A stretch of 42,464 nucleotides of DNA from a virus: the IMG/VR virus record IMGVR_UViG_3300020463_000041, positions 1-42,464 of that record; one strand, written 5' to 3'. Of this stretch, positions 13,369 through 36,801 are shown piece after piece. The notes beneath the pieces were generated by a model, which did no database searches, was not told where the DNA came from, and worked only from the letters and a program-made list of their open reading frames with translations. The position numbers and the translations under genes are program-made. Each line of letters opens with the position of its first letter. Position 1 is the stretch's first letter.

Positions 13369-13376
13369 TATAAATA
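13369..13376 (+). promoter_or_regulatory. Perfect T4-type late promoter TATAAATA
   Basis: TATAAATA is the exact T4 late consensus, unlike the GATAAATA form used elsewhere in the array. It sits in a 55-bp gap and would start a structured leader before ATG 13415. Confidence 0.85.
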
Positions 13377-27491: not shown

Positions 27492-27593
27492 ATGACTCTT
27501 AAGGAAAAACTGGTGTTCATCGTATCATTCATGTTCATGATGCAATGGGGAACCAGAGTAGTTTATGCAGGCCTATCACATGCATTGTATTGA
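27492..27593 (+). CDS. Small predicted membrane protein (33 aa)
   Basis: ATG 27492 follows CAGGAG at good spacing. The 33 residues (MTLKEKLVFIVSFMFMMQWG then TRVVYAGLSHALY) form one hydrophobic helix after a charged start, so a single-pass membrane peptide is likely. It overlaps the start of the next gene by 29 bp. The function is unknown; tiny membrane proteins are common in cyanophages. Confidence 0.6.
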   Translation: MTLKEKLVFIVSFMFMMQWGTRVVYAGLSHALY

Positions 27594-27915
27594 CATCATC
27601 CCATATGACCGTATATCGACCAGTAGGCCACTCATAGAATGGTTTACGACTGAATACCTATCCAATTATGGTCTAGACATCACAGTGGTCTATATGGACC
27701 TCTCTGATGAGGGTGTAGATGGATGGTGTATGCGTGAGGATGACAATGAGTTTCTAATTCAAATTGATGAGAAACTTGAGGGTGCTGAACATACCAGAAC
27801 GGTATTACATGAATTGTACCATGTCTTTCAACATCTACACAATATCCCACGGTGTGAGATGTGTGCTCGTATGAGTGAACAATACAACCTTGACAGATTC
27901 AAAAAAACCCTGTAG
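27565..27915 (+). CDS. HExxH metallopeptidase-like protein (cytoplasmic)
   Basis: A 116-residue protein. TVLHELYHVFQH places H82-E83-x-x-H86 as a zinc-binding HExxH helix, followed by CEMC (C97, C100) and ARMSEQYN, where E105 could be the third ligand as in SprT/ImmA-like small peptidases. The N-terminal half (ITVVYMDLSDEGVDGWC, FLIQIDEKL) resembles the beta-sheet that precedes this helix. No signal peptide, so it probably acts inside the host. ATG 27580 is an alternative start. The substrate is unknown. Confidence 0.8.
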   Translation: MQAYHMHCIDIIPYDRISTSRPLIEWFTTEYLSNYGLDITVVYMDLSDEGVDGWCMREDDNEFLIQIDEKLEGAEHTRTVLHELYHVFQHLHNIPRCEMCARMSEQYNLDRFKKTL

Positions 27916-30136: not shown

Positions 30137-30428
30137 GCCACAAGTCAATGATTATGTAAGGTGGCCTACAGAATATCATACTATTGAAGGATGGGTATAT
30201 TTTGAGGATGAGGAATATATTACAATTGAAGTGGGTGTCAAACCCAAGAAACGTTGTAATTACGTGAGGAATATGTTACACTGTAAGGATCATATCCTTG
30301 TAGTCTGTTATTCCTTCCAATGGGATGAACTGCAGTACATTAAATCTAGAGAGACAAATCATGAAAATGCGAACACTTTTATTAGGACTATCTCTGCTGA
30401 TCGTCCCTCCAAGCATGGCAGAACCTAA
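30123..30428 (+). CDS. Conserved cyanophage beta-domain protein
   Basis: A 101-residue protein starting MKTFEPQVNDYVRWPTEYHT. The pattern DYVRW-EGWVYFEDEEYITIEV-KPK-C-Y-LHCKDHILVVCY is one I recognise as widespread in marine cyanophages; it suggests a small SH3-like barrel. Residues after about 78 run into the signal-peptide region of the next gene in a different frame and may be less constrained. ATG 30123 fits the family start. Confidence 0.8.
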   Translation: MKTFEPQVNDYVRWPTEYHTIEGWVYFEDEEYITIEVGVKPKKRCNYVRNMLHCKDHILVVCYSFQWDELQYIKSRETNHENANTFIRTISADRPSKHGRT

Positions 30429-31023
30429 TGTAGAGTATTTTACCAATGAAGCCATGGGGTGTATGATGCTCCAGGAATGTACTGAAGATATTCATGAAGT
30501 CATCTCTATGGCTGATATTTCCATGGAGTATGAGAATTGGGAAGACTTTACTAATGTGACTGCAGAGTTTCATAATATGTTAGTCTTGCTCAATCAAATG
30601 GGTGTGAAAGTATATCTGGCTGATCAAAAGTATTTCCCTGTGGGTCATCGTGGCGTATATCATACCGTCAGTAATAATTTCTATCTCAACAAAGCATTCA
30701 TGCATCGTCCTAACGTATTGATGACGGTGATGAGACATGAGGGTTGGCATGCAGCACAGGATTGTATGGCTGGGACCATTGATAATAGTATGATTGCCAT
30801 TATCTTACCTGAAGAGAGTGTCCCACCAGTGTGGCGTGATATGGTAGAAGCAACATATCCTCCCTCTGCAGTTCCATGGGAAGCTGAGGCTAAGTGGGCG
30901 GGATTGACTGAAGGAATGACAGTCAAAGCACTTAAGTCTTGCGCATATGGTACAATGTGGGAAGATTTTGAACCAACACCTTTGACCCGTGAGTGGTTGG
31001 AACTCAACGGATATATTAAATGA
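30361..31023 (+). CDS. Secreted HExxH metallopeptidase-like protein, copy 1
   Basis: A 220-residue protein with a classic signal peptide (MKMRTLLLGLSLLIVPPSMA, cut after A20). TVMRHEGWHAAQDC gives H126-E127-x-x-H130, a zinc-peptidase helix; PWEAEAKWAG about 45 residues later supplies E176 as a plausible third ligand, as in gluzincins. Several cysteines suit an oxidising periplasm. The 36256-36801 product shares the plan (HEAHHVIQDC, IEAYIVAY), so they are paralogues. A phage protein exported to the periplasm could act on the envelope or block superinfection; that is inference. ATG 30361 gives the best signal peptide. Confidence 0.82.
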   Translation: MKMRTLLLGLSLLIVPPSMAEPNVEYFTNEAMGCMMLQECTEDIHEVISMADISMEYENWEDFTNVTAEFHNMLVLLNQMGVKVYLADQKYFPVGHRGVYHTVSNNFYLNKAFMHRPNVLMTVMRHEGWHAAQDCMAGTIDNSMIAIILPEESVPPVWRDMVEATYPPSAVPWEAEAKWAGLTEGMTVKALKSCAYGTMWEDFEPTPLTREWLELNGYIK

Positions 31024-31154
31024 CACTGGCTGATACATTAGTATGGGCTTGTATTCCCTTTGTACTGATTACATTGTATTTCGGTACGAAGGGAGGATAT
31101 TATAATACTGACAAATATGACGGGGATGGAACAGCTCATAAGGTATTGAAATGA
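31020..31154 (+). CDS. Small conserved membrane protein (44 aa)
   Basis: Starts MTLADTLVWACIPFVLITLY, a single membrane helix, followed by FGTKGGYYNTDKYDGDGTAH. I recognise this ADTLxWxxIPFVLxTLYFGTKGGYYNT pattern as a tiny protein of marine cyanophages with unknown role. It overlaps both neighbours by ATGA. Confidence 0.78.
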   Translation: MTLADTLVWACIPFVLITLYFGTKGGYYNTDKYDGDGTAHKVLK

Positions 31155-31726
31155 AAGTCAAGACTTTATCATTAAAACATCAGATTTATAATATACACGA
31201 TATCTTCACAGTGGATGAGTTTGACTCAATCGGTGATGAGTTCAAATATAATAATTGGAATTTTAATAAGAAAGAAAATACCGAGTCATCAAATTATCCA
31301 TTAAGAGGTTGTCTACAGACAAAGAATTCTCATTATGATGGTATTGATATTATTGGATATAATAATGTACTTACTAATTGTGCCATCAATATTAAATACA
31401 AGATCCAACAATTAGTCTTTGACAAACCCCTTACACTCAGAAGGATTAACACTAACATTCAATTCTTTGGACAAGAATCATCTTTTCATATAGACAATGA
31501 ATCAGATAATCATTGGTCTTTTGTATGTTTTGTGTCTCCTAATTGGAATACATCATGGGGTGGAGAATTTGTAGTTAATGTAGAAGACGGTGAATATATT
31601 CACTCTCCATACATACCCAACAGAGGAGTATTATTTCCCTCTCACTTACCACATATGGGTTACAGTCCTAACCGATTGTGTAACATACCTAGACTATCGA
31701 TGGCATTTGTGTATGAAACCGATTGA
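31151..31726 (+). CDS. 2OG-Fe(II) oxygenase-like protein
   Basis: A 191-residue protein. H113-x-D115 (SFHIDNES), a GGEFVVN turn, H165 or H168 (FPSHLPHMG) and R181 (RLSMAFVYE) make up the metal- and 2-oxoglutarate-binding set of the prolyl-hydroxylase-like family, in the correct order on a jelly-roll. Such genes are frequent in T4-like cyanophages; proposed substrates include proteins and nucleobases, but none can be deduced here. ATGA overlap upstream; the next gene starts 14 bp before its end. Confidence 0.85.
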   Translation: MKVKTLSLKHQIYNIHDIFTVDEFDSIGDEFKYNNWNFNKKENTESSNYPLRGCLQTKNSHYDGIDIIGYNNVLTNCAINIKYKIQQLVFDKPLTLRRINTNIQFFGQESSFHIDNESDNHWSFVCFVSPNWNTSWGGEFVVNVEDGEYIHSPYIPNRGVLFPSHLPHMGYSPNRLCNIPRLSMAFVYETD

Positions 31727-32099
31727 ATATAACACACATGAAGCAAGATATCATGAAAGATATGGTGATTGGACAATCAATGGACAAACTTATCGGTTTA
31801 AGTTAAACAATTATAGACATTTATTTACACAGGATAGATTGAAAACGGTGTCATTTGATGACATTGCATTCAAAGGAAGACACTTTACAAACTTACGTGG
31901 TCCGATGTGCCTATGTTGTGATGGTTCAAGATATTACAACGCCAAAATTAAACAACCTGGTATTTTGGTTGAAAATATGGAAAATCCATATAATCTTAAG
32001 TATAGAATGATTGACGGAAAACATAGAATAGAGAAGATGATTAACTTAGGAATGACTCACTCCGAGTTTTATGTTCTTCAAATATCTGATTTGATGTGA
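31713..32099 (+). CDS. ParB-like (DGKHR) domain protein
   Basis: A 128-residue protein starting MKPIEYNTHEARYHERYGDW. YRMIDGKHRIEKMINLGM near residues 101-118 matches the DGxHRxxxA/L core of ParB-like/sulfiredoxin-fold domains, which in phages can act as nucleases or nucleotide-binding proteins. GPMCLCCDG (C-x-C-C) in the middle might bind metal. ATG 31713 overlaps the oxygenase gene by 14 bp, suggesting co-expression and perhaps a joint role. Confidence 0.75.
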   Translation: MKPIEYNTHEARYHERYGDWTINGQTYRFKLNNYRHLFTQDRLKTVSFDDIAFKGRHFTNLRGPMCLCCDGSRYYNAKIKQPGILVENMENPYNLKYRMIDGKHRIEKMINLGMTHSEFYVLQISDLM

Positions 32100-32308
32100 T
32101 GTGGAGAATATGGTGCTATGCCCTCGGAAAGAAAGAGGGTAGAGATAAGAAAGATGCGGATAAGATTGCATATGTGAGAACCATCATAATGCTACAGCTC
32201 ATTGTTACAAACGGTTTCATTATTGCAGGTAATATCAGACATTGGAACGATGGTCAGTGTGCCAACACCATATCTGGCCCCGAAATCTTGACAACCGACC
32301 ATAAATAA
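32099..32308 (+). CDS. Conserved small membrane protein
   Basis: A 69-residue protein starting MWRIWCYALGKKEG. The pattern WRIWCYALG-KEG-DK-ADK-AYVRT-then a membrane helix (IIMLQLIVTNGFIIAG)-IRHW is one I recognise from many T4-like cyanophages; the role is unknown. ATG 32099 overlaps the previous TGA by one base (TGATG); an in-frame GTG at 32096 is less likely. Confidence 0.83.
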   Translation: MWRIWCYALGKKEGRDKKDADKIAYVRTIIMLQLIVTNGFIIAGNIRHWNDGQCANTISGPEILTTDHK

Positions 32309-32316
32309 CCTATGAT
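32288..32316 (+). promoter_or_regulatory. Sigma70-type promoter TTGACA-N17-TATGAT, with TAAATA inside
   Basis: -35 TTGACA (32288-32293), 17-bp spacer, -10 TATGAT (32311-32316); the start would be near 32323, 19 bp before ATG 32342. The spacer also holds CATAAATA (32299-32306), a possible late promoter, so the next gene may be read both early and late. Confidence 0.78.
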
Positions 32317-32341
32317 CTTATGGTAGCAATCAGGAGCTCAC

Positions 32342-32518
32342 ATGTCTGCCACCTATCTTCCTCAAAAGACTAAGTATCGCATCACTTTGGATCTGGAAGT
32401 CATGGAAGACTTCAACCCACATAATCTTGACTGGGAAAAACTATTGGATGTTCAGGGTGGTGAACACGTAGAAGCTTACGTGGAAGACTTGTCAGTTCCT
32501 GATTGTTTCTTCTCCTGA
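32342..32518 (+). CDS. Small acidic protein, unknown function
   Basis: A 58-residue protein (MSATYLPQKTKYRITLDLEV, NPHNLDWEKLLDVQGG, EAYVEDLSVPDCFFS). The strand-rich, acidic pattern is a type common in cyanophages but unassigned. CAGGAG lies eight bases before ATG 32342, one of the better ribosome-binding sites in this region, and a strong host-type promoter precedes it. Confidence 0.75.
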   Translation: MSATYLPQKTKYRITLDLEVMEDFNPHNLDWEKLLDVQGGEHVEAYVEDLSVPDCFFS

Positions 32519-32531
32519 TAATATTGGGGGT

Positions 32532-32541
32532 GATAAATAAT
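32532..32541 (+). promoter_or_regulatory. Late-type promoter (GATAAATA)
   Basis: GATAAATAAT in a 45-bp gap; TAAATA at 32534-32539, 25 bp before ATG 32564. It suggests that the next genes are late although they sit among small early-type genes. Confidence 0.6.
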
Positions 32542-32563
32542 TCATATTGTCATCCCCTATCCC

Positions 32564-32755
32564 ATGGCATTCTATTGTACAAAAAAATCATTGGTTGATG
32601 AATCGATCACACTATACTTTGCTGGTGGCAATAGATGGTCTGATCAAGTTTCAGAAAAGGTCACCTTTGCTACTAGAGATGGTTTAGACCAGAAGATTGC
32701 GAACGTTGATCGTATGTCTGGTGGATTCAAGAACGCAACAGTGGTAGAAGAATGA
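32564..32755 (+). CDS. Conserved small protein, unknown function
   Basis: A 63-residue protein (MAFYCTKKSLVDESITLYFA, GGNRWSDQVSEKVTF, SGGFKNATVVEE). The pattern resembles a short protein family of T4-like cyanophages that precedes virion-associated genes, as far as I recall. It overlaps the next gene (basic protein) by four bases and follows a late promoter, so it may be virion-related. Confidence 0.78.
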   Translation: MAFYCTKKSLVDESITLYFAGGNRWSDQVSEKVTFATRDGLDQKIANVDRMSGGFKNATVVEE

Positions 32756-33390
32756 AAACACTAAGCCAATTCCTTGCTGAAGCAAATTACGACCCTGAGA
32801 TTCAGGGTAGAAGTCAGATTCGTCAGACTGGTGAAGGTGGACGTAAAGAACCAAAGAGAGACACTGATAGCAGAAGAAAGCCAGGTGCTCAACCACGAAT
32901 GAAGGCAGTTGGTGGTGGTAAGATGGCTCCTGTCGGTCAATATAAAGACAGAAAGGATATTGGTGCGACTAAAGCTAGGTCTGAAAGAGAACAACAACCA
33001 ACACAAGAAAGAGGTAGTGCTGCACTATCCGCAAGAGAACAACAAAGAAAGGCTTATCAAGAAAGAAAGGCACGTGAGAGAGGTGGTAGTCGTACTCCAA
33101 TTACAGCAAAAAGTAAAGAGAAGACAGCCTCACAATTGTTGAAAAAGAAAGAAGCTCCCAAGAGCACAGAACCAAAGAAAGAACGTAAATCATACAAAAC
33201 TGCTGATGGCGGTGGTATGACAAGGAAAGAAAGAGACCAAACTCGTAACAAGAAAACAGGTGAAGATAGGAAGACTGCTAAACAACAAATGAGAGCGGAA
33301 TTTGAGAAGAAACATGGTAGAAAGCCTAGTAAGAAAGAGGCAATTCAAATGACAGCCAAGGCACATGCTGCAGCCAAGGCACTCAAATGA
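32752..33390 (+). CDS. Very basic Lys/Arg-rich protein
   Basis: A 212-residue protein starting MKTLSQFLAEANYDPEIQGR. After about residue 25 it is dominated by Lys, Arg, Gln, Glu and Ser with almost no hydrophobic core (ERKARERGGSRTPITAK, KKKEAPKSTEPKKERKSYK, EKKHGRKPSKKEAI), so it is largely disordered and strongly positive. MKTxSQFLxE starts are frequent in cyanophage virion proteins. A head-internal or nucleic-acid-binding role is plausible. A late promoter lies upstream of its partner gene. Confidence 0.85.
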   Translation: MKTLSQFLAEANYDPEIQGRSQIRQTGEGGRKEPKRDTDSRRKPGAQPRMKAVGGGKMAPVGQYKDRKDIGATKARSEREQQPTQERGSAALSAREQQRKAYQERKARERGGSRTPITAKSKEKTASQLLKKKEAPKSTEPKKERKSYKTADGGGMTRKERDQTRNKKTGEDRKTAKQQMRAEFEKKHGRKPSKKEAIQMTAKAHAAAKALK

Positions 33391-33542
33391 CACAAAGAAT
33401 GATGCGATTGTTTAATACAATCGATGAAGCCTACGAACATATCAAGTCTGATCAAGGTATATCTTTGAAAGAAGCCAAAGTATATGTTGATCAGAGTATT
33501 GCCCAGAGAATTGATGAAAAGGTCTGGGTAGTTCTCCCCTGA
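33387..33542 (+). CDS. Small protein (51 aa), unknown function
   Basis: A 51-residue helical protein (MTQRMMRLFNTIDEAYEHIK, ISLKEAKVYVDQSIAQRID). Its ATG overlaps the stop of the basic protein (ATGA), and it ends just before the first copy of the TATAGT-type promoter family. No family recognised. Confidence 0.68.
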   Translation: MTQRMMRLFNTIDEAYEHIKSDQGISLKEAKVYVDQSIAQRIDEKVWVVLP

Positions 33543-33547
33543 CAAAG

Positions 33548-33580
33548 TTACTCACCTTGAAAGGTCCACAGTAGTACGAG
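33548..33580 (+). promoter_or_regulatory. CTCACC-type promoter motif, copy 1 (degenerate -10)
   Basis: TTACTC (33548-33553), then ACCTTGAAAGGTCCAC, then AGTAGT at the -10 place (33570-33575). The start would be near 33582, just before ATG 33594. The -10 is weaker than in other copies. Confidence 0.6.
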
Positions 33581-33593
33581 AACCACCTAAATT

Positions 33594-34478
33594 ATGACAA
33601 GCACTCATATCGACCACCCAGAAGACACCATCCTTACTGGTGATCTCAGTGTGATTGATGCACTGTATGACAATGCATTTATCTCCATGAAGATGGACGG
33701 TATGAGTTTGGTTTGGGGTACCAATCCTCAAAACGGTAAGTTTTTTGTATGCACGAAATCGTGTTTTAACAAAAAGAAAATCAAGCTGTGTTATACTGTA
33801 GAAGATATTCTGACCCACTTTGGACATCAGATTGAAGTTGTAGATATCCTTACTAATTGTCTCTTTCATCTCCCTAAGACTGATAAGATCATCTGGGGTG
33901 ATTGGCTTGGTTTCGGTCACACTGATGTGTTGACTCAGAATACTTTGACCTATGCATTCTCTGAGGCTATTGATCAGAAACTGGTCATCGCACCACATAC
34001 TCTTGTCAACGTATATGCAGAGTTCAGTGATGGTGTATGTGAGCCATTGACTGATACTCTGGAAGACACTAATATGGTCAAGTGGGTACAACCTTCTGTT
34101 GACCGTATGCCACCACAGACTAAGGCACCCAAGATCAACAAAGACACGATTAAGTTCTTGACAAAGAAACAGGCTGACAGTGCAAAGATCGCTATCAACC
34201 AACTTATCAGAAGGGGTGAATATCTTGATGACGCTACACTGACTGAAATCCTTGGTTGTGTTCATCTTGCTAATCTCTATCAGTATGTGATGGAAATCAA
34301 ACTGGACATCATGGATAGTCTTATCATCAATGATGCACCAACTGCATATCTTCCAAGTGGTGATATCGCTCCTAATGGTGAGGGTTATGTCTTCCATTCT
34401 GAGTGTTATGGTAGTGTCAAACTGGTAAATCGTACCGAGTTTGCCTATGCCAACTTCAACAATGGGTACGGTACATAG
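33594..34478 (+). CDS. KxDG nucleotidyltransferase (RNA/DNA ligase-like) protein
   Basis: A 294-residue protein. FISMKMDGMSLVWG gives K33-x-D35-G36, the lysine that becomes adenylylated in ligases and mRNA-capping enzymes. Near the C-terminus E263-GYVF (motif IV, EGxV-like) and K276 (motif V, SVKLVNRTEF) complete the set. The middle has a helical insertion. This pattern matches a group of phage ligase-like proteins (I think DUF6267). It may join RNA or DNA ends; polarity and cofactor cannot be told. The stop TAG is followed at once by the promoter of the helicase gene. Confidence 0.82.
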   Translation: MTSTHIDHPEDTILTGDLSVIDALYDNAFISMKMDGMSLVWGTNPQNGKFFVCTKSCFNKKKIKLCYTVEDILTHFGHQIEVVDILTNCLFHLPKTDKIIWGDWLGFGHTDVLTQNTLTYAFSEAIDQKLVIAPHTLVNVYAEFSDGVCEPLTDTLEDTNMVKWVQPSVDRMPPQTKAPKINKDTIKFLTKKQADSAKIAINQLIRRGEYLDDATLTEILGCVHLANLYQYVMEIKLDIMDSLIINDAPTAYLPSGDIAPNGEGYVFHSECYGSVKLVNRTEFAYANFNNGYGT

Positions 34479-34510
34479 TTACTCACCTCCAAACGTCCCT
34501 TATTATGTAG
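34479..34510 (+). promoter_or_regulatory. CTCACC-type promoter motif, copy 2
   Basis: TTACTC (34479-34484), ACCTCCAAACGTCCCT, TATTAT (34501-34506). It overlaps the ligase-like gene's stop region; the start would be near 34513, just before ATG 34523. Confidence 0.75.
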
Positions 34511-34522
34511 CCACTGAACTTG

Positions 34523-35701
34523 ATGATCAAACTTCGCCCACACCAACAGGAAGCAGTATATGCTCTCCGTCAGAATAGTATTGGGCAGGTCATTGTTCCT
34601 ACCGGTGGTGGTAAAACACTCATCGCAATCATGGATGCAGTGAAGAGATTTGAGGTCAATGTTCCTCGTAACATTGTTGTTGTGGCTCCTCGTATTCTCC
34701 TGGCAGACCAACTCTGTTCGGAGTATATGGAGCACATCACAAATGCTAACGTCTTGCATTGTCACAGTGGTGATACAAAATACTTCAGCACTACCAAGTC
34801 GGATCATATCAAACTGTTTGTGGATATGTGTAATCATGTCCGTGAGCATTCTATTATCTTTACCACATATCACTCGCTTCATCGTGTTCAGGAAGCTGGT
34901 GTTGCTGTAGACACGATTTACTTTGACGAGGCACATAACAGTGTTCAACGTAACTTCTATCCACCGACAGAGTATTTCAGTAAGCATGCGGATCGCTGTT
35001 ACTTTTTTACTGCTACTCGCAAGACTAGTGTCACTGTCAACAAACCTGGTATGAACTGGGTTGATACTTATGGGCAGGTGATTACACGAGTGTCTGCACC
35101 TGAACTTGTCAACAATGGTTATATTCTTCCACCTAAAGTCAAGGTGATTGATATGGCCAAGGTCGATAAAAAGTCCTTGACTCCGTATATTGAGAGCAAC
35201 AAGATCCTTGAAACCATTGATCAAATCAGGATCAAAAAGATCCTTGTGTGTGTCAAAACCACACGTCAGTTGATGAATGTTTTCAGGACAGACTTCGCTG
35301 ATCAGTTGACCATGCGTGGTTATTCTTATCTCTACATCACGTCTAAAACCGGTGCCGTCATCGATGGTAACAAAGTCAGTCGTGAAGAGTTCTTTGAGAC
35401 ACTGAATGCATGGGGTAAAGATCCTGCCAAACAGTTTGTTGTTCTTCATCGTTCTATTCTGTCTGAAGGTATCAACGTCTCTGAACTTGAGGCTGTTATC
35501 TTCCTTCGTAACATGGATACTATCGAGATGTTGCAAACTGTTGGTCGTGTCATTCGTGTTGGCTCTGAAGCCAAGTCTTATGGTCTTCTGTGTGTCCCTT
35601 GCTACAATAATGTCGGTATCTCTACTCAAAAGGCACTACAAAACTGTGTAGATGTTGTCTTTGAGAAGGGTGAGATGTATGATAGTGTAGTTCGTAGATA
35701 A
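34523..35701 (+). CDS. SF2 DEAH-box helicase
   Basis: A 392-residue helicase. Motif I is PTGGGKT (26-32), motif II DEAH (135-138), motif III FFTATR (about 162-167), and motif VI QTVGRVIR (338-345); LRPHQQEAV at the start is the Q-like motif. At under 400 residues it is shorter than T4 UvsW (about 500), with no extra N-terminal domain. It likely remodels branched DNA or RNA-DNA hybrids in phage replication and recombination. I use ATG 34523; TTG 34520 is in frame. It is preceded by a CTCACC-type promoter. Confidence 0.9.
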   Translation: MIKLRPHQQEAVYALRQNSIGQVIVPTGGGKTLIAIMDAVKRFEVNVPRNIVVVAPRILLADQLCSEYMEHITNANVLHCHSGDTKYFSTTKSDHIKLFVDMCNHVREHSIIFTTYHSLHRVQEAGVAVDTIYFDEAHNSVQRNFYPPTEYFSKHADRCYFFTATRKTSVTVNKPGMNWVDTYGQVITRVSAPELVNNGYILPPKVKVIDMAKVDKKSLTPYIESNKILETIDQIRIKKILVCVKTTRQLMNVFRTDFADQLTMRGYSYLYITSKTGAVIDGNKVSREEFFETLNAWGKDPAKQFVVLHRSILSEGINVSELEAVIFLRNMDTIEMLQTVGRVIRVGSEAKSYGLLCVPCYNNVGISTQKALQNCVDVVFEKGEMYDSVVRR

Positions 35702-35702
35702 T

Positions 35703-35897
35703 ATGAAGTACACTAACTCTCACATTCTTGATGCTAAACCAGGAGCTCTACCTATCGTGTTCAATGAAAACTTATTGGCTATCCCTATGAGTGGCTCACA
35801 AACACAGCTCATGGTTATACATAATGGATCACCCATTAAAGTATGTCGTAACAAGCAATCTGCTTTGACACTGATGAAGAAACTCAAAAAACGATAA
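35703..35897 (+). CDS. Small basic protein, unknown function
   Basis: A 64-residue protein (MKYTNSHILDAKPGALPIVF, ENLLAIPMSG, KVCRNKQSALTLMKKLKKR). It begins one base after the helicase stop, so it is co-transcribed with it, and it ends in a Lys-rich helix that may bind nucleic acid. No family recognised. Confidence 0.75.
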   Translation: MKYTNSHILDAKPGALPIVFNENLLAIPMSGSQTQLMVIHNGSPIKVCRNKQSALTLMKKLKKR

Positions 35898-35899
35898 AA

Positions 35900-35930
35900 T
35901 ACCTCACCTTCAAAGGTCTTCTGTAGTATG
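35900..35930 (+). promoter_or_regulatory. CTCACC-type promoter motif, copy 3
   Basis: TACCTC (35900-35905), ACCTTCAAAGGTCTTC, TGTAGT (35922-35927), directly followed by ATG (35928-35930). If this -10 is used, the transcript would start after that ATG. Confidence 0.65.
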
Positions 35931-36062
35931 TCACACACCACACCAAACTGGCAACACCACTCCAAAAAACTTAAGATAACCAAGGGAACTTGTAAGGGTC
36001 GTCTAAGGTCTCGTAAGCAAGCTCTGAGGTCACTTAAACTCAAATTATGTACCAAACTATGA
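35928..36062 (+). CDS. Small very basic protein (44 aa)
   Basis: A 44-residue protein (MSHTTPNWQHHSKKLKITKG, CKGRLRSRKQALRSLKLKL), one third Lys/Arg. It overlaps the next gene by 16 bp. The ATG abuts the -10 box of the promoter motif, so it could be made only from transcripts that begin upstream. It could be a chance reading frame; its composition and gap-filling position favour a real gene. Confidence 0.5.
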   Translation: MSHTTPNWQHHSKKLKITKGTCKGRLRSRKQALRSLKLKLCTKL

Positions 36063-36259
36063 ATGTTGATTCAAAACTTCTTACTGTCATTGACAGTCTT
36101 CGTGATTGTTTATCTGTGGGATCTGAAAGCAAGGGAGATCCTGACAAAGGTTATCCCTATGCTTATGGGTACAACACCGCTGGAATAAGATACGCTATTG
36201 ACAGTTTAGAAACTGTTGTCGAAGAATACCGCTCCCTCATGTGTGAAAACAATCAATGA
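36047..36259 (+). CDS. Conserved small protein, unknown function
   Basis: A 70-residue protein (MYQTMNVDSKLLTVIDSLRD, GYPYAYGYNTAGIRYAIDSL). The SEGKGD/SKGDPDKGYPYAYGY-type segment followed by a helix is a pattern I associate with short cyanophage proteins. It overlaps the secreted peptidase gene by four bases (ATGA). The function is unknown. Confidence 0.75.
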   Translation: MYQTMNVDSKLLTVIDSLRDCLSVGSESKGDPDKGYPYAYGYNTAGIRYAIDSLETVVEEYRSLMCENNQ

Positions 36260-36801
36260 AAAAACTATTTGCTTCTCTCCTCGTTGCAGCATCAATTCTG
36301 ACACCTGGTGTGGCTAAGGCCAACAACACTGCGGAGGATCACCATGCATTGTGGAAGGAATTACAGAATCAAGGTGTAACTACAATCTACAATCACAAAC
36401 TCCATTGTCCTAAAGATGGGAGTGTTGATGGTAGATATTTCCTCTATTCTGCCATGTTGATTGTATGTCAGGACAACATGACTGCACATTTAATGGAGGA
36501 ACCTTGGACTGAAAATGATTTCGACACCTTGAGACATGAGGCACATCATGTAATTCAAGACTGCGCACGTGGTGTAATTGGTGACGGTGTTTCCCAGCCA
36601 TTGTTTGATGCAGAAACATATGCAGACTTTGTTGAAGCATCTACTATACCAATGGATCGATTAGAAGAACTCTTTGAAATGATGGTTAGTGATGGTCTTG
36701 ATCCTATGACTATTGTGGAGGAGATTGAAGCTTATATTGTAGCTTATGAAGTTCCTGCAGATAGTATCAGGACAAAGCTAATTGAGATCTGTTCAGAATA
36801 A
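36256..36801 (+). CDS. Secreted HExxH metallopeptidase-like protein, copy 2
   Basis: A 181-residue protein with a signal peptide (MKKLFASLLVAASILTPGVA then KA, cut at about residue 20-22). FDTLRHEAHHVIQDCARG gives H94-E95-x-x-H98; VEEIEAYIVAY supplies E158 as a candidate third zinc ligand. The HExxHxxQDC core and overall order match the 30361-31023 product, so the two are diverged paralogues. Export to the periplasm is likely in a Gram-negative cyanobacterial host. Its target is unknown. The stop TAA is part of the next promoter motif. Confidence 0.83.
   Translation: MKKLFASLLVAASILTPGVAKANNTAEDHHALWKELQNQGVTTIYNHKLHCPKDGSVDGRYFLYSAMLIVCQDNMTAHLMEEPWTENDFDTLRHEAHHVIQDCARGVIGDGVSQPLFDAETYADFVEASTIPMDRLEELFEMMVSDGLDPMTIVEEIEAYIVAYEVPADSIRTKLIEICSE

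Follow-up and report, generated by a model that had tools for sequence, protein, structure and literature searches.

The window analysed here is a stretch of viral DNA of 42,464 nucleotides (positions 1 to 42,464 of IMG/VR record IMGVR_UViG_3300020463_000041), and it encodes two proteins, both predicted to be exported, that carry the HExxH signature of zinc metallopeptidases. The first, open reading frame (ORF) A, lies on the plus strand at 30361 to 31023 and specifies 220 amino acids. A predicted Sec signal peptide occupies residues 1 to 20 (30361 to 30420) and ends, without a lipobox, at an AxA-type site between SMA and E; up to the predicted cleavage the N terminus reads MKMRTLLLGLSLLIVPPSMA, which is followed by EP. 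Its HEGWH motif (30736 to 30750; residues 126 to 130) falls within a predicted helix spanning residues 117 to 137 and forms part of the core HEGWHAAQDC (residues 126 to 135), and a candidate third metal ligand is found at E174-A-E176 (30880 to 30888, in the segment WEAEAKWAG), within the predicted helix 168 to 181. ORF B (36256 to 36801, plus strand; 181 amino acids) has the same layout: a predicted Sec signal peptide at residues 1 to 22 (36256 to 36321; MKKLFASLLVAASILTPGVAKA, cleaved between AKA and N and followed by NN), HEAHH at residues 94 to 98 (36535 to 36549; core HEAHHVIQDC, residues 94 to 103) in the predicted helix 86 to 105, and the candidate third ligand E156-I-E158 (36721 to 36729, within EEIEAYIVA) in the predicted helix 150 to 165. 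The only other HExxH protein among the window ORFs examined is encoded by ORF C (27565 to 27915, plus strand; 116 amino acids), which has HELYHVFQH at residues 82 to 90 and no signal peptide. A sequence-only reading of this DNA had placed HExxH proteins at 30361, 36256 and 27565, the first two exported and the third cytoplasmic, and our ORFs and motifs agree with it; the interval that it gave, 30361 to 36801, does contain ORFs A and B, and ORF C lies outside it, upstream.

When the window proteins were shuffled, HExxH occurred 0.34 times on average, and at least three times in 0.35% of shuffles. Chance is excluded because HExxH and a downstream ExE[AS] motif, which corresponds to the later EAxA-type glutamate of the sequence-only reading, are retained in all 43 aligned sequences of the A family and all 48 of the B family; a loss of HExxH in homologues had been proposed as evidence against the zinc-protease reading, and no such loss was found in these alignments. 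Signal peptides were assessed by simple criteria (n-region charge, hydrophobic core and AxA site), which were passed by 43/43 A-family and 44/48 B-family members, none with a lipobox. Within the window, only ORFs A and B and one tail-region protein passed, and the last of these looks like a false positive.

ORF A is a nearly full-length member of phrog_591 (residues 17 to 220 of 220; E = 1e-112), the family also known as T4-LIKE GC 945 and represented by Syn9 gp219. Named phage relatives listed for ORF A are 63 to 72% identical to it. Besides the HEGWH residues and both glutamates of the ExE motif, the alignment (n = 43) is invariant at MRHEGWHAAQDCMAG, PWE and EAxWAG, apart from x. The function of phrog_591 is listed as unknown, although a few records are labelled "proteolytic enzyme" or "SprT-like"; our literature search found no paper on the function of gp219 or T4-GC 945, and the papers found contain no description of a fold, a signal peptide or a link to phrog_16003. 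At its C terminus the A-family protein of S-SCSM1 (L096:4944-5780) bears a His-rich extension of about 60 residues, which the other aligned members lack and which might bind or store zinc.

ORF B matches phrog_16003, likewise of unknown function in PHROGs, over residues 9 to 179 of 181 (E = 1.2e-18), and a scan with the B-family profile returned 80 loci. In an alignment of 48 members reaching down to 31% identity, H94, E95, H98, E156, E158 and cysteines 51, 71, 103 and 179 are invariant. phrog_16003 also includes Syn5 gp14, P60 gp06 and S-CBP42 and PSS2 gp015 proteins, from T7-like cyanopodoviruses and a siphovirus, which match at E values of 1e-28 or better; the spacing from HExxH to the glutamate is 56 to 62 residues in ORF B and its relatives, compared with 38 to 42 in these named members. 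Aligned as profiles, the A and B families match with an hhalign probability of 98.5 (E = 1.7e-15), so that the earlier description of the two proteins as paralogous is correct. Matches of ORF B in a viral structure library point the same way: they comprise the Syn5 gp14, S-CBP42 and S-N03 proteins and the A-type proteins of S-WAM1 and S-SCSM1, together with another good match, C7F461, which is nameless there. Syn5 gp14 itself combines RHEVWHAVQAC and ExEA with a signal peptide and four cysteines. Indeed, RHExxHxxQxC, ExE[AS] and exactly four cysteines after residue 20 are common to all 95 aligned proteins (43 A, 48 B and 4 podoviral), and the even, conserved number of cysteines would fit disulfides formed in an oxidising compartment. 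Two functionally unassigned PHROG families are thus united in one predicted enzyme superfamily, and the evidence on homology, conservation, export signals and distribution is solid.

The zinc-protease-like character that the sequence-only reading gave to these proteins fits the order of helices and strands in AlphaFold2 models of ORF A (predicted local distance difference test score 85) and ORF B (score 89). Both place a backing helix and a three-stranded sheet before the HExxH helix, which is followed by a helix carrying the two invariant glutamates; this is the gluzincin order of elements and argues for a gluzincin topology in both proteins. Foldseek found no strong match to either model in the PDB (best E = 0.13 to 0.14), and realignment gave Z scores of 6.5 to 7.5 for IrrE/PprI, 5.3 to 5.5 for ArdC and about 5 for lethal-factor domains. 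All of these scores are weak, but the top matches are mostly HExxH metal proteins and cover the motif-bearing part of the models. Overall, we regard a gluzincin fold as very likely and metallopeptidase activity as probable.

Neither protein fits a known family in Pfam or NCBIfam, and profile searches against PDB sequences returned nothing credible. Matches of ORF A to KaiC (E = 0.13 and up) were rejected, as they involve residues 48 to 115, outside the HExxH motif, and a match of ORF B to PF09101 (E = 0.17) is below threshold and was put down to chance. The best structural match of both models, IrrE/PprI of the Peptidase_M78 family (PF06114), shares the HExxH motif and the following glutamate helix (3dte; Z = 6.5 and 7.5, which is weak, over 91 to 99 residues with a root mean square deviation of 3.4 to 4.7 Å). 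However, IrrE is a cytoplasmic protein, whereas ORFs A and B are predicted to be exported and have four cysteines, and neither matches PF06114 at E = 1. Minigluzincins (selecase, abylysin and jannalysin), which are among the Foldseek matches of ORF A, order the elements around the HExxH helix in the same way, but with weak scores and no sequence match, and at about 105 to 112 residues they are smaller than the 181 to 220 of ORFs A and B. For both models, the better structural matches include the catalytic domain of anthrax lethal factor (M34) and the PPEP proteases, which are secreted gluzincins; they differ in size and targets, are only 9 to 16% identical and score Z of about 5 or below, and some of the lethal-factor alignments land on its noncatalytic domain.

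By tblastn, 366 of the 50,697 phage records searched carry the A family, and each of them goes by the name of a Synechococcus phage (301), a cyanophage (61) or a Prochlorococcus phage (4); two of the last four are Syn1, which was isolated on Synechococcus WH8101. As a denominator we used a search with the capsid protein gp23, which retrieved 514 records, including 378 named Synechococcus, 61 Cyanophage and 24 Prochlorococcus; both sets of counts are redundant. Searches of whole records found a member in 22/22 phages isolated on or named for Synechococcus or isolated on Prochlorococcus MIT9303 or MIT9313, most of them picked because of a match, and in 0/4 other Prochlorococcus phages (P-SSM2, P-SSM4, MED4-213 and P-TIM68). 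Where gp23 was the only ground for picking a phage, a member was present in ACG-2014f and S-SKS1 and absent from P-SSM2, P-SSM4 and MED4-213. The superfamily is lacking in most Prochlorococcus phages, but members in P-RSM1 (MIT9303), PSS2 (MIT9313) and P-TIM40 (NATL2A; family A) led us to reject the idea that it is exclusive to Synechococcus phages. No members were found by tblastn in phages of other hosts, save for one match to an uncultured phage at E = 0.7, and ORF B had no match in plasmids. Two members per genome are present in RN05-S, S-CREM2, S-H34, S-N03, S-B68 and SynMITS9220M01, which makes the pair in the window ordinary for this group of phages; the earlier view that such a pair is unusual for a lytic phage therefore does not hold. 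In PP110486.1 (MC09), one member appears with equal scores at 1125 to 1604 and at 174119 to 174598, the two ends of a linear record, which is probably an assembly end duplication or a terminal repeat.

Among cellular genomes, the control genome of Synechococcus elongatus matches both phrog_591 and phrog_16003, which makes a cyanobacterial origin, or a host homologue, of the superfamily plausible; that of Methanocaldococcus jannaschii matches phrog_591, perhaps through selecase. In the cellular profile search, phrog_16003 was found in 0/197 other Bacteroidota and phrog_591 in 0/199 other Pseudomonadota. The A family had three matches in cellular genomes, two on contigs of metagenome-assembled genomes and one in an assembly of Nonlabens xiamenensis. 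We count none of the three as an established host gene. The Nonlabens contig (NZ_RMVE01000006.1; 188 kb) resembles a cyanophage genome: it carries gp23, and the 10.7 kb fetched from it share 98.8% identity with cyanophage P-TIM40. Its presence in the assembly is likely contamination.

Gene position provides some indication of when these proteins are made. In Syn5, S-TIP28, P60 and S-CBP42 the gene lies immediately upstream of the phage RNA polymerase gene or is separated from it by one small gene, and a metagenomic contig (L232) likewise has it upstream of RNA polymerase. In T7-like phages, genes upstream of the RNA polymerase gene are transcribed early by the host RNA polymerase. In T4-like Synechococcus phages from freshwater, and in some others of that type, a relative lies between the gp45 sliding-clamp and clamp-loader genes (L241:4977-5384, L266:2501-2911, L267:2501-2929 and L268:1992-2378); the one in DSL-LC02 is annotated, probably wrongly, as a serine hydroxymethyltransferase. 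In marine T4-like phages the A gene has other neighbours, namely psbA and psbD (both followed by Syn9 gp219), cpeT and gp5 (S-SSM5 and P-RSM1), or pstS, petE and PTOX (S-SCSM1). The promoters of the window offer no evidence on timing, since a search for exact T4-type late promoters (TATAAATA) found a single plus-strand site, at 13369, and none near ORF A or B. The virion proteome of S-CREM2 lists 52 proteins, among them neither gp108, a relative of ORF B, nor gp18 (PMC10665884), and this absence is in keeping with a protein produced inside the cell. Taken together, early or middle expression is likely in the podoviruses and plausible for the window genes, and we incline toward it with some confidence.

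We lean, by a modest degree, toward a reading in which ORFs A and B are early or middle, Sec-exported, disulfide-stabilised gluzincins that cleave a Synechococcus protein of the periplasm or thylakoid lumen. On this model, the two would belong to one superfamily of phage zinc metalloproteins of the gluzincin class, with HExxH and a downstream glutamate as ligands. The infected cell would make them and export them through its own Sec pathway, and cleavage would then yield a mature form with four cysteines. Held stable by disulfides in the periplasm or lumen, this form may act as an endopeptidase on a host protein there. The target would most likely be present in Synechococcus and some low-light Prochlorococcus strains and lacking in most Prochlorococcus. 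Synthesis early in infection could serve to condition the host, whether by remodelling the envelope or lumen or by blocking later phages, and the position upstream of RNA polymerase in the T7-like relatives makes such conditioning likelier than lysis. We therefore favour a host-conditioning function in the periplasm or lumen over a part in lysis. The sequence-only reading had offered envelope remodelling, lysis timing and superinfection exclusion as possible roles, of which the first and the last may still apply. As to lysis, a late weakening of the envelope by exported enzymes that have built up in the periplasm would suit a hydrolase exported by a lytic phage; moreover, the A gene adjoins the gene for the gp5 baseplate hub/tail lysozyme in S-SSM5 and lies near gp5 in P-RSM1. 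However, the T7-like relatives have the gene in the early region, apart from late and lysis genes, and this position, with the freshwater one among replication genes, argues against a lysis gene. In none of the regions that we annotated was a holin or endolysin gene seen beside ORF A or B, and we consider a lysis-phase protease quite unlikely.

Cleavage of a protein in the thylakoid lumen, for instance during photosystem turnover, might instead sustain photosynthesis in the infected cell. Sec-type signals may also direct proteins to the thylakoid lumen, and the placement of Syn9 gp219 after psbA and psbD, with cpeT, ferredoxin, plastocyanin and PTOX neighbours elsewhere, could be taken in this sense. 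Yet many Prochlorococcus phages carry psbA and lack the superfamily, among the podoviral and siphoviral relatives only the S-CRES1 member has a gene of this kind nearby, for a bilin lyase, and the neighbourhoods of psbA and gp5 are known hot-spots for Synechococcus-phage genes, where unrelated genes gather (PMC3037559); we hold this role to be doubtful. Superinfection exclusion is a specific form of the conditioning reading, in which an early periplasmic protease would remove or alter a receptor or the inner-membrane proteins of DNA entry. It would suit the early podoviral position, the export, the occurrence in phages that share hosts without being related and the presence of several members in one genome, but no receptor is known as a target, and in this narrow form we rate it as a minor possibility. 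It is also conceivable, if rather improbable, that these are zincin-fold proteins that bind metal or regulate without cleaving peptides: some HExxH proteins have other roles, the structural matches include ArdC and the HExxH domain of an oxygenase (8s5f), and the annotation of phage HExxH proteins usually rests on the motif alone. A purely structural role would not, however, require the catalytic glutamate of HExxH, which is invariant in 95/95 sequences.

Several points weigh against the conditioning reading that we prefer. The fold matches are weak (Foldseek E > 0.1), and Z scores below 8 may, according to the tool, reflect a mere common arrangement. The metal site on which the two histidines and the glutamate would converge is putative. 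Computation underlies what we say of fold, export and distribution, and we infer metal binding, catalysis, target and benefit to the phage. Early timing is deduced from podoviral gene order, whereas the T4-like A gene sits among photosynthesis, tail or small genes. Finally, the freshwater relatives that follow gp45 have no clear signal peptide, so that export is not universal in the superfamily.

Much of the cyanophage gene pool is without known function, and for this superfamily we can now offer predicted catalytic residues, a cell location and a host pattern. As it spans three tail types and most T4-like Synechococcus phages, its role is probably central to the infection of a major primary producer of the ocean. 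One tentative extension is that cleavage of one host-specific protein of the envelope or lumen explains why unrelated Synechococcus phages (T4-like, T7-like and siphoviruses) have all kept an early, Sec-exported gluzincin with four cysteines; this would be a shared takeover or exclusion factor that separates Synechococcus phages from most Prochlorococcus phages. If active, ORFs A and B would be exported phage proteases, a class that to our knowledge is little described. A single laboratory host, Synechococcus WH8109, allows both Syn9 (gp219) and Syn5 (gp14) to be engineered (PMC8776855).

ORF C represents a separate HExxH family, judged by its sequence to be cytoplasmic, with no significant link to ORF B (E = 0.27 against phrog_16003). 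It matches phrog_10499 (E = 4.3e-11) and bears a subthreshold resemblance to the M78/IrrE family (PF06114; E = 0.0054, 17 bits against a cutoff of 22), and its relatives retain HExxH and, in nearly all cases, a later glutamate. Proteins of this type (phrog_10499 and phrog_87) share with ORFs A and B the HExxH motif, a glutamine two residues on and the later glutamate; unlike them, they are cytoplasmic and do not have the four-cysteine pattern.

The gene order of the window from ORF C past ORF A to ORF B is the same in Synechococcus phage RN05-S, with protein identities of 42 to 84%, which identifies the window as a piece of a T4-like cyanophage. Identity to the RN05-S counterparts is 68% for ORF A, 84% for the neighbouring helicase and only 48% for ORF B, which suggests that ORF B evolves faster. 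A strongly basic, low-complexity protein of 212 amino acids (32752 to 33390) is 61% identical to its RN05-S counterpart and has no Pfam or PHROG match. The gene at 31151 to 31726 encodes a 2OG-Fe(II) oxygenase (PF13640; E = 2.6e-6) whose best PHROG, phrog_274, carries the doubtful label "DNA endonuclease V". Two long minus-strand frames, at 33552 to 34397 (281 amino acids) and 34445 to 35629 (394 amino acids), run antisense to the DUF6267 and helicase genes and are probably shadow frames.

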